From Thermospira aquatica (GTDB lineage Bacteria; Spirochaetota; Brevinematia; Brevinematales; Thermospiraceae), in assembly GCF_023525255.1 (NCBI RefSeq), contig NZ_CP073355.1:2356001-2420000 (forward strand): a stretch of DNA of 64,000 nt. Direction: 5' to 3'. The notes under the pieces are model-generated. The model did not search any database and was not told the DNA's origin. It saw nothing but the letters and a program-made list of their open reading frames with translations. The translations under genes were made by a program, and so were the position numbers. Shown one piece after another: positions 12,218 to 61,371 of this stretch. Each line of letters begins with the position of its first letter. Position 1 is the first letter of the stretch.

Positions 12218-12619
12218 GCTATTACCTTTTCACAGTGTGGTTGTGGTAAAAACAAGGGATGGAATAAGGTAATACTTTTTACTTTGTTTTTTTTCTAAAA
12301 CTAGTTGAGAAGAAGAAAATGTGGAAAAAGGGATCGGGCATTTGCTCTTACTTTGTTTCAGTAGACGGTGTAGCTATTACCTTGTTGCAGTGGGAGAGAA
12401 CTGCTCTTACCCTGTCGCAGTACCAAAGGGCTTGCTCTTATCCTGTTTCAGTAAGGGTCTATCAATAAAATGACTGTGATAAGGAAAGAGCGGGGATTTT
12501 GGAGTTTTCTTTTTTCTCCAAAAGTATCGTTGAAAGATGGTATTAGAGACTTTGCTCTTAGCCTGTTTCAGTTTTTATGGTGCTTGTGAACGGCTTTTTC
12601 ACTGCAACAAGGGAAGAGC
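12218..12619. repeat. 19-bp repeat cluster, downstream flank of IS1595-like copy 1
   Basis: Degenerate copies of GCTMTTMCCTTGTTGCAGT. Six forward copies start at 12218, 12344, 12373, 12403, 12434 and 12554, and two reverse copies at 12473 and 12601. Spacing is irregular, about 10 to 110 bp, and the spacers are unrelated. Between 12491 and 12530 lies a hairpin (TTTTGGAG/CTCCAAAA) that is conserved at the other IS1595-like locus. No Cas gene and no regular spacer length are present, so this is not a CRISPR array. Confidence 0.85.
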
Positions 12620-12787
12620 ATGGGGTTTTTATCCCTTTTTCCACTTCTTTTTTGTAAGAAAAAACGCTTTTTTGCCTTTTTCGTAGAGGACAACGAAAAG
12701 TTTTCCAAAAAAACAAAATGAAACAAAAACTTTTAGTTTTCTATTTGACAGACGCAGGAAATGTGTTGAGAAAGAAAAAACGAAAAC
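12620..12787 (-). other. Conserved 3' flank of IS1595-like copy 1
   Basis: Non-coding stretch directly after the ORF that is almost identical to 60839-61005 behind copy 2, including long A/T runs and a CTGTCAAATAG block. Conservation outside the ORF marks it as part of the same mobile or duplicated unit. No terminator with a clear stem-loop was recognised. Confidence 0.6.
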
Positions 12788-13588
12788 CTACGCCCAGATG
12801 GGAAGAATAAGCGGCTCAGCCACCAGCTTTTTCCACGGGAGAAGCTGGCGACGTTTGCCAAGCCTTCTTAAAAGCTCTTCAAGCCTTGTGGCAGCATCTT
12901 CTATATTAAACCGAAAACAAAACTCATCAAGATAGCGCTGCATGTGCTTTCGACAACCATAGTGATAGACGTCTTCAAGAAGGTTTTTCAACCCATCGTT
13001 AATATGGGAAAGCCACGGCATTCTTTTTTCTACGGGCGTGTGGCGGAAAAACTTGCCAAAAAAGTCTGAAAGCCAATCACTATTCACATCATCCACAAGG
13101 TGAATATGAAGTTTAGAAGGGGTATCATCCGCATCAATTTCGACAACCTGCATGGGAGAAAAGTTTTTTCTCTGGCGGCGTTTGATGCCAGAAAGAAAGA
13201 AAAAGGTTTTTACAAGCTTTCGAAGGGATTTGGTGTGATGGCGAGTGGTAAGCCGCATGAGGCTTCGTAGCTTCTGAAGAAGAAGCCAGCTTGCCTTGTA
13301 GCTAATATGAAGAAGTTGTGAAAGCCTCACCGCGTTTATGCCACCATCCTGGCAGACAAGAAACATGGCAGAAAGCCAGATTTTTGGCGAAAGGTGACTT
13401 TTTCGCATGATGGACTGGCTTTTTAAGGAAAATTGTCTGCCACACTTGGGGCACTGATACACGAGCCGGCACGAGAGAAGATGCGCTTTTTCTTTACACC
13501 TTGGGCAAATAGGTCCCTCTGGCCAGAGGGCTTTTTCGAGGATCTGGTAGGCCCCGTTTTCTGAGAGTGTGAAAAAATCCTTTTCCAT
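12788..13588 (-). CDS. IS1595-like (ISXO2-type) transposase-derived protein, copy 1
   Basis: 266 residues, intact, ATG 13588 behind AAGGAG. The N-terminus is a zinc ribbon with Cys28-x2-Cys31 and Cys46-x2-Cys49 (CPRC, CPKC), then a helical DNA-binding region (SPKIWLSAMFLVCQDGGINAVRLSQLLHIS). The C-terminus has the IS1595 signature RKHMQRYLDEFCFRFN at 213-228. A first catalytic Asp is likely Asp152 (VVEIDADD), but only about 65 residues separate it from the C-terminal motif, far fewer than in usual IS1595 enzymes, so the middle of the DDE domain with the second Asp seems missing. About 92% identical to copy 2 at 60038-60838. Possibly a domesticated DNA-binding protein. Confidence 0.75.
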   Translation of the reverse strand: MEKDFFTLSENGAYQILEKALWPEGPICPRCKEKAHLLSCRLVYQCPKCGRQFSLKSQSIMRKSHLSPKIWLSAMFLVCQDGGINAVRLSQLLHISYKASWLLLQKLRSLMRLTTRHHTKSLRKLVKTFFFLSGIKRRQRKNFSPMQVVEIDADDTPSKLHIHLVDDVNSDWLSDFFGKFFRHTPVEKRMPWLSHINDGLKNLLEDVYHYGCRKHMQRYLDEFCFRFNIEDAATRLEELLRRLGKRRQLLPWKKLVAEPLILPIWA

Positions 13589-13717
13589 GGTTTTCTCCTT
13601 AGAGAAATTTTTTCATACTATATATATCGAAAATTTTTTGTTATAGTTGTTAAAAAAGATGTTTTATATATTTTAAAAGTAAGATCGATGGGGAGATTTT
13701 GGGGGTGTGAGAAAAAT

Positions 13718-14250
13718 GCTCTTACCTTGTTGCAGTGTGTGGGACAAGAGATTTCCTAAGGTCGGGTAAGAGAAAGTTTTTTCTTTACTACAACATGGTA
13801 AGAGCAAATCTCAAAGCACGTGAGAGCGTGAGAGGGGATATAAAGGTTAAACGTTTAACCTGGAATTTTCGACGTAAGCTCTTACCTTTTTGCAGTGTTA
13901 TTGCGAGGTTTATCACTGTGAAAAAGGAATAGCTGGAATTTTTCCCACTGTGACAAGGTAACGGCAAGAGTTTTTTCCTGCAACAAGGAAACAGCCTTCA
14001 GGTCCCACACATTTACTGCAAAATGGTAATAGCTAGCGTTTTTTGTACTGCAACAAGGGAAGAGTAAAGGCTTTTTCCCTACTGTGATAAAGTAACAGCT
14101 TTTATTTTTTCACTCTTATTGCAACAAGAAAGAGCATGGCAGTCTTTTTAACTGCGATAAGGGAATAGCCATCACACTGGTGGTTTTTAACTGCAACAGG
14201 GTAAAAGCTGGTGAGCTTTCTTTTGCTTTCCACTGTAACAAGGGAAGAGC
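13718..14250. repeat. 19-bp repeat cluster, upstream flank of IS1595-like copy 1
   Basis: Thirteen copies of the GCTMTTMCCTTGTTGCAGT family. Eleven are in reverse orientation (13787, 13915, 13947, 13977, 14015, 14047, 14081, 14117, 14151, 14190, 14232) and two forward (13718, 13878). Read along the IS1595-like gene, nearly all point towards it, the same arrangement as upstream of copy 2. Spacers run from about 10 to 70 bp. Confidence 0.85.
13844..13861. promoter_or_regulatory. 18-bp perfect palindrome inside the repeat cluster
   Basis: AGGTTAAACGTTTAACCT is a perfect inverted repeat. Shorter versions (TTAAACGTTTAA or GTGAAACGTTTAAC) occur at 32934, 40518 and 59769 in the other clusters. The central CG with AAA/TTT arms resembles LacI-family operators, but no such regulator is in the window. 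It may be a protein site belonging to the element. Confidence 0.6.
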
Positions 14251-32722: not shown

Positions 32723-33233
32723 GCTCTTACCCTGTTGCAGCTGCCTCTCTCATAGGTGCTATTACCTTTTTGCAGTGAGCGTGAAAAAACAAAAGCTATT
32801 CCCTTATCGCAGTAATAAAAACCCTTGCTCTTCCCTTGTTACAGTGGAAAAAATTCCAAGCTATGACTTTTTCACAGTGTTAAACCATCCGATAACACTG
32901 TGAAAGGGTAAGAGCTTACGTGGAGAATTTCCGGTGAAACGTTTAACTCATATATCTCTTTTCACATTCACACGTGCTTTGAGAGTTGCTCTTCCCTGGT
33001 TACTGTTATCTCTTATTCTGAGCTTATTGCAGTTATTCCTCTCAAGGTTATTCTCATTTTACAGTTAGCACAATAGCTCTATAGCTATTCCCTTGTTGCA
33101 GTGGAAAACGGCAAATTTCTAGCTCTTCCCTTGTTACAGTGAAAAAATTTCCCCCACGAGTTTGCCCGTTCTCTCGTACTTCCTCAAAACTGCAACAAGG
33201 TAATAGCATCCCCCACTGCAACAAGGGAAGAGC
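32723..33233. repeat. Stand-alone 19-bp repeat cluster between xpb and sigma gene
   Basis: Eight forward copies (32723, 32758, 32795, 32827, 32860, 32988, 33084, 33122) and three reverse (32897, 33189, 33215) of GCTMTTMCCTTGTTGCAGT. The central part (32845-33006) follows the order and spacers of the cores at 13787-13965 and 59662-59840, including GAATTTCCGG, the GTGAAACGTTTAAC palindrome and a CACGTGCTTTGAGA block. There is no transposase ORF; short frames here translate the repeats and are not genes. Confidence 0.85.
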
Positions 33234-40212: not shown

Positions 40213-40624
40213 GCTGTTAACTTTTCGCAGTTTTGGTCTTTTCCCCTTTTCTATATGCTATTACCTTTTCGCAGCTAGAAAAAGTCTGCCATGCTATTCC
40301 CTTATCACAGCGAAAACAATAGTGCTTTTTGAAGCCGTTACCATGCTTAGAAAAAGCAAGAAATATTTGCTCTTAACCTGGTGCAACAGACCATTACGCT
40401 CAAAAGCTTTTATACTCCCTCTTTAAAATCAAAGAGAGCTGGCTATCACTTTGTCCCTGTGCATTTTCAAGATTTCAAAAGCTAAAAAAAGAGAATAGCG
40501 CACCCTAAACATTTCAGGTTAAACGTTTAACTCAATCGATAGTAATCTGGTCTGACTTTTAAAAACGTGTTATTACCTTATCGCAGCTCAAATTTACGAA
40601 CCCAAACTGCAAAAAGGGAATAGC
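40213..40624. repeat. Degenerate 19-bp repeat cluster with palindrome
   Basis: Five forward copies (40213, 40257, 40293, 40379, 40569) and one reverse (40606), more diverged than in the other clusters. The palindrome GTTAAACGTTTAAC lies at 40518-40531. No ORF in 40071-40693 looks real. It appears to be an old or partly eroded member of the same family, between the cNMP-fold gene and the end of the V-ATPase operon. Confidence 0.7.
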
Positions 40625-59423: not shown

Positions 59424-59909
59424 GCTATGACGATGTTGCAGTGGTGTGTTGGGAAGGTGTATTGCTCTTACCATGTTGCAGTGTGTCTGTTATGGGAGCT
59501 ATTACCTTGTTGCAGTGGGAAGAGGGAGCTATAGCTATTACCTTGTCGCAGTGTCCCTCCCATGTAGGCTATTACCTTGTTGCAGTCTAGAAACCGTGCT
59601 AGCTCTTACCATATCACAGTAAGGATCCTAAGCTATTCCCTTGTTGCAGGAAAAAACTCTTGCCGTTACCTTGTCACAGTGGGAAAAATTCCAGCTATTA
59701 CTTTTTCACAGTGGTAAACCTCGCGATAATACTGCAAAAAGGGAAGAGCTTATGTCGAAAACTCCAGCTTAAACGTTTAATCTTTATATGCCCTCTTACA
59801 ATCTCACTTACTTTGAGATTTGCTCTTACCATGTTGCAGTAAAGAAAAAACTTTCTCTTACCCGACCTTAGGAAATCTCTTGTCCCACACACTGCAACAA
59901 GGTAAGAGC
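59424..59909. repeat. 19-bp repeat cluster, upstream flank of IS1595-like copy 2
   Basis: Ten forward copies (59424, 59464, 59498, 59534, 59568, 59602, 59632, 59662, 59694, 59822) and two reverse (59731, 59891) of GCTMTTMCCTTGTTGCAGT. The forward copies point towards the ORF. The part 59632-59909 is nearly the reverse complement of 13718-13995, including the palindrome TTAAACGTTTAA at 59769-59780. Confidence 0.87.
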
Positions 59910-60037
59910 ATTTTTCTCTCAACTAATAACTTTTCTTACAATCTCCTTTTTTAAAAAAACAAAACATTTTTCTTGACAAATATAACTAAAAATTTTCGAT
60001 ATATATAGTATGAAAAAATTCCTCTAAGGAGAAAACC

Positions 60038-60838
60038 ATGGAAAAGGATTTTTTCACACTCTCAGAAAAAGAATCTTACCAGATTCTCGAAAAAACCCTC
60101 TGGCCAGAGGGACCTATTTGCCCACGGTGTAAGGCAAAGGCGCATCTTCTCTCGTGCCGGCTCGTGTATCAGTGCCCCAAGTGTGGCAGACAATTTTCCT
60201 TAAAAAGCCAGTCCATCATGCGAAAAAGTCACCTTTCGCCAAAAATCTGGCTTTCTGCCATGTTTCTTGTCTGCCAGGATGGTGGCATAAACGCCGTCAA
60301 ACTCTCGAAACTTCTTCATATCAGCTACAAGGCAAGCTGGCTTCTTCTTCAAAAACTGCGAAGCCTTATGCGGCTTACCACTCGCCATCACACGAAATCC
60401 CTCCGAAAGCTTGTCAAAACCTTTTTCTTTCTCTCCGGCATCAAACGCCGCCAAAGAAAAAACTTTTCCCCCATGCAGGTTGTCGAAATTGATGCGGATG
60501 ATACCCCTTCTAAACTTCACATCCATCTTGTAGATGATGTAAGTCATCACTGGATTTCAGACTTTTTTGGCAAGCTTTTCCGCCACACCTCGGTGGAAAA
60601 AAGAACACCCTGGCTTTCCCACCTTAACGATGGGTTGAAAAACCTTCTTGAAGACGTCTATCACTATGGTTGTCGAAAGCACATGCAGCGCTATCTTGAT
60701 GAGTTTTGCTTTCGGTTTAACATCGAGGGGGTTTCTTCCAGGCTTGAGGAGCTTTTAAGAAGGCTTGGCAAACGTCGCCAGCTTCTCCCGTGGAAAAAAC
60801 TCGTCACCGAGCCGCTTATTCTTCCCATCTGGGCGTAG
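60038..60838 (+). CDS. IS1595-like (ISXO2-type) transposase-derived protein, copy 2
   Basis: 266 residues, intact, ATG 60038 behind AAGGAG. Domain layout as in copy 1: zinc ribbon with CPRC and CPKC, helical DNA-binding region, Asp152 in VVEIDADD, a short remaining middle part, and RKHMQRYLDEFCFRFN. About 20 substitutions separate the copies, clustered around residues 11-13, 169-172 and 231-235, while the zinc ribbon and C-terminal motif are nearly unchanged. No stop or frameshift has accumulated, unlike every other transposase here. Either recent movement or selection could explain this. Confidence 0.75.
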   Translation: MEKDFFTLSEKESYQILEKTLWPEGPICPRCKAKAHLLSCRLVYQCPKCGRQFSLKSQSIMRKSHLSPKIWLSAMFLVCQDGGINAVKLSKLLHISYKASWLLLQKLRSLMRLTTRHHTKSLRKLVKTFFFLSGIKRRQRKNFSPMQVVEIDADDTPSKLHIHLVDDVSHHWISDFFGKLFRHTSVEKRTPWLSHLNDGLKNLLEDVYHYGCRKHMQRYLDEFCFRFNIEGVSSRLEELLRRLGKRRQLLPWKKLVTEPLILPIWA

Positions 60839-61005: not shown

Positions 61006-61371
61006 GCTCTTTCCTTGTTGCAGTGAAAAAAACGTTCTTGCTATTCCTTTTTCACAGTTTTTCCTCTGATCCAAGACTGTAAAAGAGTAATAGCATCTTT
61101 TTTCTCAGGTGAAACCTTTCACCAATTTCCTCTTCGTGTTTTTTTTTGAGAGTAGCTATTACCTTTTCACAGTCTCCAGAATTATAAAAACTGAAACAAG
61201 GTAAGAGCAGCGTCTATACTACCATCCCCCGACGATACTTTTGGAGAAAAAAGAAAACTCCAAAATCCCCGCTCTTTCCTTATCACAGTCACCTTATTGG
61301 AAAATCTCACTGCAACAAAGTAATAGCTGTCCCCCAAATCCCCTTGTCCCCCACTGCAACAAGGAAAGAGC
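61006..61371. repeat. 19-bp repeat cluster, downstream flank of IS1595-like copy 2
   Basis: Four forward copies (61006, 61040, 61155, 61271) and four reverse (61076, 61190, 61309, 61353). The hairpin TTTTGGAG/CTCCAAAA at 61239-61265 and the adjoining repeat at 61271 are shared with copy 1 (12473-12523), but several units in between differ, so whole repeat-spacer units have been gained or lost. Confidence 0.85.

Follow-up and report, generated by a model that had tools for sequence, protein, structure and literature searches.

Closest described systems

REP and REPIN sequences with their RAYT (TnpA-REP) proteins are defined by a high-copy intergenic repeat, with inverted doublets as the main unit, that flanks a single-copy transposase-derived gene for an HUH/Y1 (IS200/IS605-like) protein with an intact catalytic tyrosine (PMC3116915; PMC8266576). 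In PMC8266576, REP-RAYT is described as the first case in prokaryotes of a domesticated transposase linked to a population of repeats. Neisserial intergenic mosaic elements (dRS3/RS) contain a 20-bp repeat, present about 700 times, whose intergenic arrays span 200-2700 bp (PMC3898611). IS1595 insertion sequences (ISXO2/IS1016-like) are marked by terminal inverted repeats, an 8-bp target-site duplication and a transposase with a DDE/DDN catalytic triad. The ends of Tn7-type and Mu-type elements carry several transposase sites each, which run in one direction within an end and are inverted between ends.

The window analysed here, a 64-kb stretch of the Thermospira aquatica genome, contains arrays of a 19-mer repeat around two copies of a gene for an IS1595-derived protein, of which we found no prior description in the open-licence literature. 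We consider it probable that the system is REPIN-RAYT-like, with the 19-mers being fossil IS1595 ends that would now serve a domesticated IS1595 transposase, itself catalytically dead, as putative binding sites.

The 19-mer repeat in the window

At up to three mismatches, GCTMTTMCCTTGTTGCAGT matches 41 sites in the window, all of them within four loci (12.2-14.3, 32.7-33.2, 40.2-40.6 and 59.4-61.4 kb), whereas 100 dinucleotide shuffles of the window average 0.03 matches and never exceed 1. A weight matrix at a score of at least 15 gives 55 copies (20, 10, 5 and 20 per locus) and a looser matrix cut about 60 in the same loci, while beyond them there are only three weak matrix matches, close to noise level. 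The first-pass annotation had counted about 58 copies restricted to these four loci, and had described a same-direction run before the ORF with mixed copies after it at both gene loci; all of this holds. It had also confined variation to positions 4, 7, 12 and 14, which do vary, but the variation is slightly wider, covering positions 4 (A/C), 7 (A/C/T), 9 (C/T), 10, 12 (G/A/T), 14 (T/C) and 15 (G/A), with the other positions nearly invariant. The features of the window are:

12218..12619, no strand assigned: array 3′ of copy 1, 8 copies
12601..12619, minus strand: inner 19-mer, 3′ bound of the copy-1 core; gene-locus homology breaks at its outer edge
12788..13588, minus strand: IS1595-derived protein, copy 1, 266 aa; PF12760 E 3e-10, PF12762 positions 114-153 only
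13589..13717, minus strand: 5′ leader of copy 1, with promoter-like and ribosome-binding sequences (promoter judged by eye)
13718..13736, plus strand: inner 19-mer, 5′ bound of the copy-1 core; gene-locus homology begins here
13718..14250, no strand assigned: 12-copy array 5′ of copy 1, including a run of nine consecutive minus-strand copies
32723..33233, no strand assigned: gene-free array of 10 copies, flanked by a helicase gene and a sigma-70-type gene
40213..40624, no strand assigned: gene-free array of 5 copies, flanked by genes for a cNMP-binding protein and V-ATPase subunit I
59424..59909, no strand assigned: array 5′ of copy 2, nine plus-strand copies, then minus, plus, minus
59891..59909, minus strand: inner 19-mer, 5′ bound of the copy-2 core (repeat scan and gene-locus homology)
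60038..60838, plus strand: IS1595-derived protein, copy 2, 266 aa, 92% identical to copy 1
61006..61371, no strand assigned: array 3′ of copy 2, 8 mixed copies; 61006-61024 is the core bound

Distribution and architecture in the genome

The genome of the window (G000) is a single contig of 2,515,453 bases, in which the window occupies bases 2,356,001-2,420,000. Searched as a whole, it yields 659 pattern matches, almost all intergenic, compared with 6 for the reversed pattern, and all 16 of its IS1595-like loci lie within arrays. In stretches totalling 1.50 of 2.52 Mb, only 26 of 657 good-score repeats fall inside ORFs of at least 200 aa, leaving 96% outside, although such ORFs make up 76% of this sample; the repeat is therefore high-copy and intergenic, as in REPIN-RAYT systems. 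The earlier expectation that clusters would be tied to the ORF or intergenic is borne out in that almost all are intergenic, but 34 of the 50 clusters with at least two copies hold no gene and 16 hold one. The arrays are polar: 37/50 clusters open with a plus copy and close with a minus copy, with GCT outward, and none shows the reverse, where chance would give a quarter for an arrangement. Most copies lie in same-direction runs, and doublets sit within longer arrays.

Three other identities were considered for the repeat and rejected. CRISPR was set aside on account of the spacers, which are 10-21 nt long, irregular and fall into ~106 families in 325, many of them common to several arrays. 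Convergent-gene terminators were set aside given the lack of enrichment at convergent gene ends, and an ori/ter landmark given that repeat density, although uneven, tracks neither arm. Separately, a palindrome, TTAAACGTTTAA, lies inside long spacers between a minus and a plus repeat, at about 13840-13870 of the window and in units U62, U68 and U72.

The IS1595-derived protein

The gene is present in G000 as 13 intact copies, copy 1 among them, and 3 broken ones. Repeat arrays flank it at 16/16 G000 loci, at the 3 intact loci of the congeneric genome G002 and at both loci of a second congener, G001, so that, as with RAYTs, the repeat flanks a transposase-derived gene, here one that is not single-copy. 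The core common to all gene copies is ~1.13 kb long and runs ACTGCAACAAGGTAAGAGC - leader - ORF - tail - GCTCTTCCCTTGTTGCAGT. Outside the core, the flanks belong to a few families that are variously combined among gene units, giving a mosaic. Units U62 (1343 kb) and U74 (435 kb) belong to a 5.4-kb duplication that includes the gene unit and is 97.8% identical, the gene copy at 435 kb being broken, and in unit U61 (1558.6-1560.7 kb) the upstream array is parted from the gene by ~2 kb of other DNA.

Homology to IS1595 is seen in the PF12760 zinc ribbon, found in 8/8 members, and in NF033547, which matches below its cut-off within the genus. Both window ORFs carry the IS1595 zinc ribbon, and of the 153 positions of the IS1595 DDE domain they match only the final 40; copy 1 keeps the zinc ribbon and the helical DNA-binding part, and its DDE centre is lost. 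When aligned with intact relatives, all members, including those of both congeners, have K, R, H or T in place of the first aspartate (D1), lack the segment carrying the second (D2) and have G, Q, E or N as the third residue, so the catalytic triad of IS1595 is absent. An alternative alignment of the D1 region through VEID (G000) was rejected, since members of the genus have D, N, T or G there. Glu222 is the only invariant acidic residue in the eight-sequence alignment, and is also conserved in the active family. A first structure model, made from 8 sequences, was poor (pLDDT 58); a better model (pLDDT 86.8, pTM 0.86) has three strands followed by helices, with no later strands to carry D2. 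A fold search with the better model gave only weak integrase and mariner matches among solved structures (E >= 0.06), which we set aside as evidence.

Despite this loss, the protein is under purifying selection, with dN 0.029, dS 0.256 and dN/dS 0.11 among 11 intact G000 copies. As read from its residues and codons, it is dead as a DDE enzyme yet selected. The dead centre is common to the congeneric lineages, which implies that copy number rose after the loss of catalysis. A PF12762 profile search found no complete IS1595 DDE domain in G000, G001 or G002, and thus no IS1595-family helper.

Co-divergence of repeat and protein

The two congeners, G002 (Ch60) and G001 (SKW221), are metagenome assemblies of Brevinematales (Spirochaetota), and with G000 make up the three genomes of the genus that were compared. 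In G002, where gene copies are 40-45% identical, the repeat has the consensus GCTATTACCTTGTTTCAGC; a looser pattern finds 357 matches, and the control none. Its repeats are mostly 54-bp doublets of a plus copy, 15-17 nt and a minus copy; bare doublets form 12/34 clusters, and 27/29 multi-copy clusters run from plus to minus. Inverted doublets are thus the main unit in G002, as in REPINs, whereas in G000 they form parts of longer arrays. G001 carries a single gene of the G000/G002 type with few repeats, together with a second paralogue (35% identity) that is flanked by its own word, GTTCTCTCCTTTTCTCA, in plus/minus doublets with ~51 nt between the arms. Some 30 copies of GTTCTCTCCTTTTCTCA lie within about 50 kb of this gene (contig C29, 73-124 kb), as if spread were local. 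Degenerate copies of the GTTCTCTCCTTTTCTCA word are also found in G002, one of them adjoined by a gene fragment.

Comparison of these words and proteins has shown that repeat and protein co-diverge, as judged from sequence, both between species and between paralogues, and the congeners and second paralogue offer ready-made specificity swaps. Presence beyond the one genome, for which the first-pass annotation had looked to several strains, is borne out inasmuch as repeats lie beside the gene in both congeners, with the words shifted; in the other relatives searched, counts of the 19-mer are background-like, and a distant copy of the gene occurs in one of them, G007.

Origin of the repeat

IS1595 relatives were taken from other phyla for comparison, several with an intact DDN triad, such as L201 (SAR324) and L204 (Solidesulfovibrio). 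The L204 element, 995 bp in length, is bounded by the terminal inverted repeats CGTGGCTATTGCCTTCACTCAG / CGTGGCTATCCCCTTAACTCAG, with CAAAAATA as an exact 8-bp target duplication. Matrices trained solely on Brevinematales repeats, one from G000 and one from G002, rank the two L204 ends 1 and 3 (G000 matrix) and 2 and 1 (G002 matrix) of 21,440 positions, and the L201 ends 1 and 4 and 2 and 1, respectively, of 21,488 positions. The distant elements L222 and L224 are missed by the G000 matrix, while the G002 matrix recovers L224. The high ranks of the L204 and L201 ends indicate that the 19-mer is derived from an IS1595 end. It corresponds to the inner, presumably transposase-binding, part of the canonical terminal inverted repeat, with its polarity kept (GCT outward). 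It follows that the repeat is not unrelated to a known IS; the first-pass annotation had named such a match as refuting its reading, and while the 19-mer does derive from an IS1595 terminal inverted repeat, the REP/RAYT analogy still stands.

This homology, with the same polarity, raises the question of whether the 19-mers are the ends of an ordinary, active or recently active, IS1595 element and of its internally deleted copies (MITEs). The gene is multi-copy, 19-mers bound the gene cores and the 54-bp inverted doublets resemble minimal MITEs, all of which fit such an element. However, the catalytic residues are missing in every copy and in both congeners, no intact IS1595 transposase was found in the three genomes, and the outer CGTG of canonical IS ends is not kept in the repeats. 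Target duplications of 5-10 bp at G000 repeat pairs, at all offsets, and duplications at 28 G002 doublets do not rise above the control, although old insertions could have lost theirs. Same-direction arrays of up to ~14 ends with differing spacers are also not the structure of a MITE. An ordinary IS with MITEs is therefore unlikely. The fossil-end reading shares with IS1595 elements the protein homology, the zinc-ribbon domain, the terminal-repeat homology and the polarity, and differs from them in the loss of the triad and of the element tip, in the lack of target duplications among those sought and in the many extra ends in arrays; by these sequence features the system is also not a working IS1595 insertion sequence. 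Multiple same-direction site repeats at each end, inverted between ends, recall Tn7-type and Mu-type elements, which differ from the present case in its up to ~14 copies per side, its arrays without a gene and its dead enzyme.

Protein site or folded element

The first-pass annotation had left open whether the pattern of variation reflects a protein site or a structured RNA/DNA element. REP sequences with HUH transposases, and transcription terminators, act as single-stranded DNA or RNA hairpins, and the doublets here can form hairpins that are stable (z -4 to -11). The single 19-mer has no fold, though, and most G000 copies lie in same-direction runs. Doublet arms show no covariation in G000 or G002, and in fact mismatch more with their true than with shuffled partners (3.0 against 2.62 in G002; 4.68 against 4.27 in G000). 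The repeat has no match in Rfam, which, with the lack of arm covariation, led us to reject a structured RNA, and the absence of enrichment at convergent gene ends speaks against terminators. A hairpin function is thus very improbable. Since arms do not covary, single repeats do not fold and G000 copies run in the same direction, duplex binding sites are preferred; variation without arm-to-arm covariation favours a protein site, the first of the two options, over a folded nucleic acid.

Recombination between arrays and synteny

Three homologous arrays, at 31, 39 and 424 kb of G000, differ by complete repeat-plus-spacer modules, with junctions within repeats, and about 106 spacer families account for 325 spacers and recur across different arrays. 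These whole-module differences, the position of the junctions and the recurring spacers point to recombination within repeats. Synteny (REARRANGEMENT) between G002 and G000 breaks at 9/13 repeat-bearing gene junctions compared with 1/37 without repeats (Fisher p 2.6e-6), where orthologues are best tblastn matches of at least 58% identity, intergenic length is unmatched and some breakpoints could be misassemblies at repeats, as G002 is metagenome-assembled. At three collinear sites, a repeat is present in G002 and the site is empty in G000. At one gene locus (G000 640475, L080 7136), the neighbour on one side is the same in the two species, which implies that at least this location is old. The repeats offer a way to account for changes of gene order in this lineage of spirochaetes.

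The layout is reminiscent of the neisserial mosaic elements, which likewise have intergenic repeat arrays, shuffled modules and a link to rearrangements (PMC3898611). dRS3, in contrast, is a short inverted repeat tied to a phage integrase target and not to an embedded transposase-derived gene family, and its ATTCCC(N8)GGGAAT motif is unrelated in sequence to the 19-mer. By extension of this parallel, the arrays could be neutral recombination substrates in which the protein has no role and the gene hitch-hikes. Modules exchanged between arrays, the mosaic homology of gene units, the association with synteny breakpoints and the many arrays without a gene are what such a substrate would produce; it leaves unexplained the purifying selection on the protein, the co-divergence of repeat and protein and the nearly fixed consensus across scattered copies, and we regard it as quite unlikely.

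Comparison with REPIN-RAYT systems and proposed mechanism

The likeness to REP/REPIN-RAYT systems that the first-pass annotation had proposed, on an unrelated transposase fold, is supported by the intergenic clusters, the 16/16 loci in arrays, the congener doublets and the co-divergence. Both have hundreds of copies of a short intergenic repeat, which pair as inverted doublets around short spacers, build up higher-order mosaic arrays and also flank a gene of transposase origin, and in both the repeat and the protein change together. Many clusters here hold no gene, and unlike RAYTs the transposase has lost its catalysis and is encoded in many copies. The protein belongs to the DDE (IS1595) lineage and not to HUH/Y1 (IS200/IS605-like) proteins with their catalytic tyrosine; its catalytic centre is lost where RAYTs keep theirs; its gene is multi-copy where theirs is single-copy; and the 19-mer is not itself a palindrome and has no GTAG tag. 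On the sequence evidence, then, the system is REPIN-RAYT-like in layout and co-evolution and is not a member, being of another enzyme family with its centre lost and its gene in many copies.

With fossil IS1595 ends as the preferred reading, the zinc ribbon and helical N-terminal domain are predicted to bind the 19-mer as duplex DNA. The arrays and the enclosed gene would spread mainly through homologous recombination or gene conversion between repeats, rather than through DDE transposition, and recombination between repeats would also break synteny. The protein may be kept because occupancy of the sites is useful to the host, through chromosome organisation, local regulation or control of recombination, or alternatively because it is useful to the element itself.

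Two observations count against this explanation. The rise to 16 loci with a dead centre is only loosely explained by recombination alone, since most units lie among different neighbours. In addition, the 126-bp leader is almost identical in 10/11 copies, with a p-distance of 0.025 without unit U69, compared with 0.142 at third codon positions and 0.21 in the 3′ tail; the diverged leader is that of window copy 2 (59910-60037). A leader more conserved than synonymous sites could mean recent copying. It is conceivable, though rather unlikely, that the dead protein still promotes copying of the gene and repeat without RNase-H-type catalysis, perhaps by bringing arrays together and steering recombination or gene conversion. 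If true, this would be a self-spreading DNA-binding protein without transposase chemistry.

A second, independent case on an unrelated enzyme would separate the possible reasons for the persistence of REP-RAYT systems. With cutting activity gone, persistence here cannot depend on DDE cutting, so that binding, recombination or a host function must suffice.

Dead IS1595-family proteins in other lineages

Triad-less IS1595-family proteins also occur in Desulfobulbaceae/Desulfocapsa (L227, L231, L235 and others), where no repeats were seen nearby. Dead IS1595-family proteins in Paenibacillus (L211, L212, L214, L217 and L228) have a local tandem array 3′ of the gene, at about 5.8-6.7 kb, with periods of 42, 42, 53, about 10 and 9 bp, respectively. 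Dispersed repeats beside these proteins were considered and rejected, as the 42-bp word is local only and its genome counts equal the control. The Paenibacillus arrays are possibly an independent parallel.
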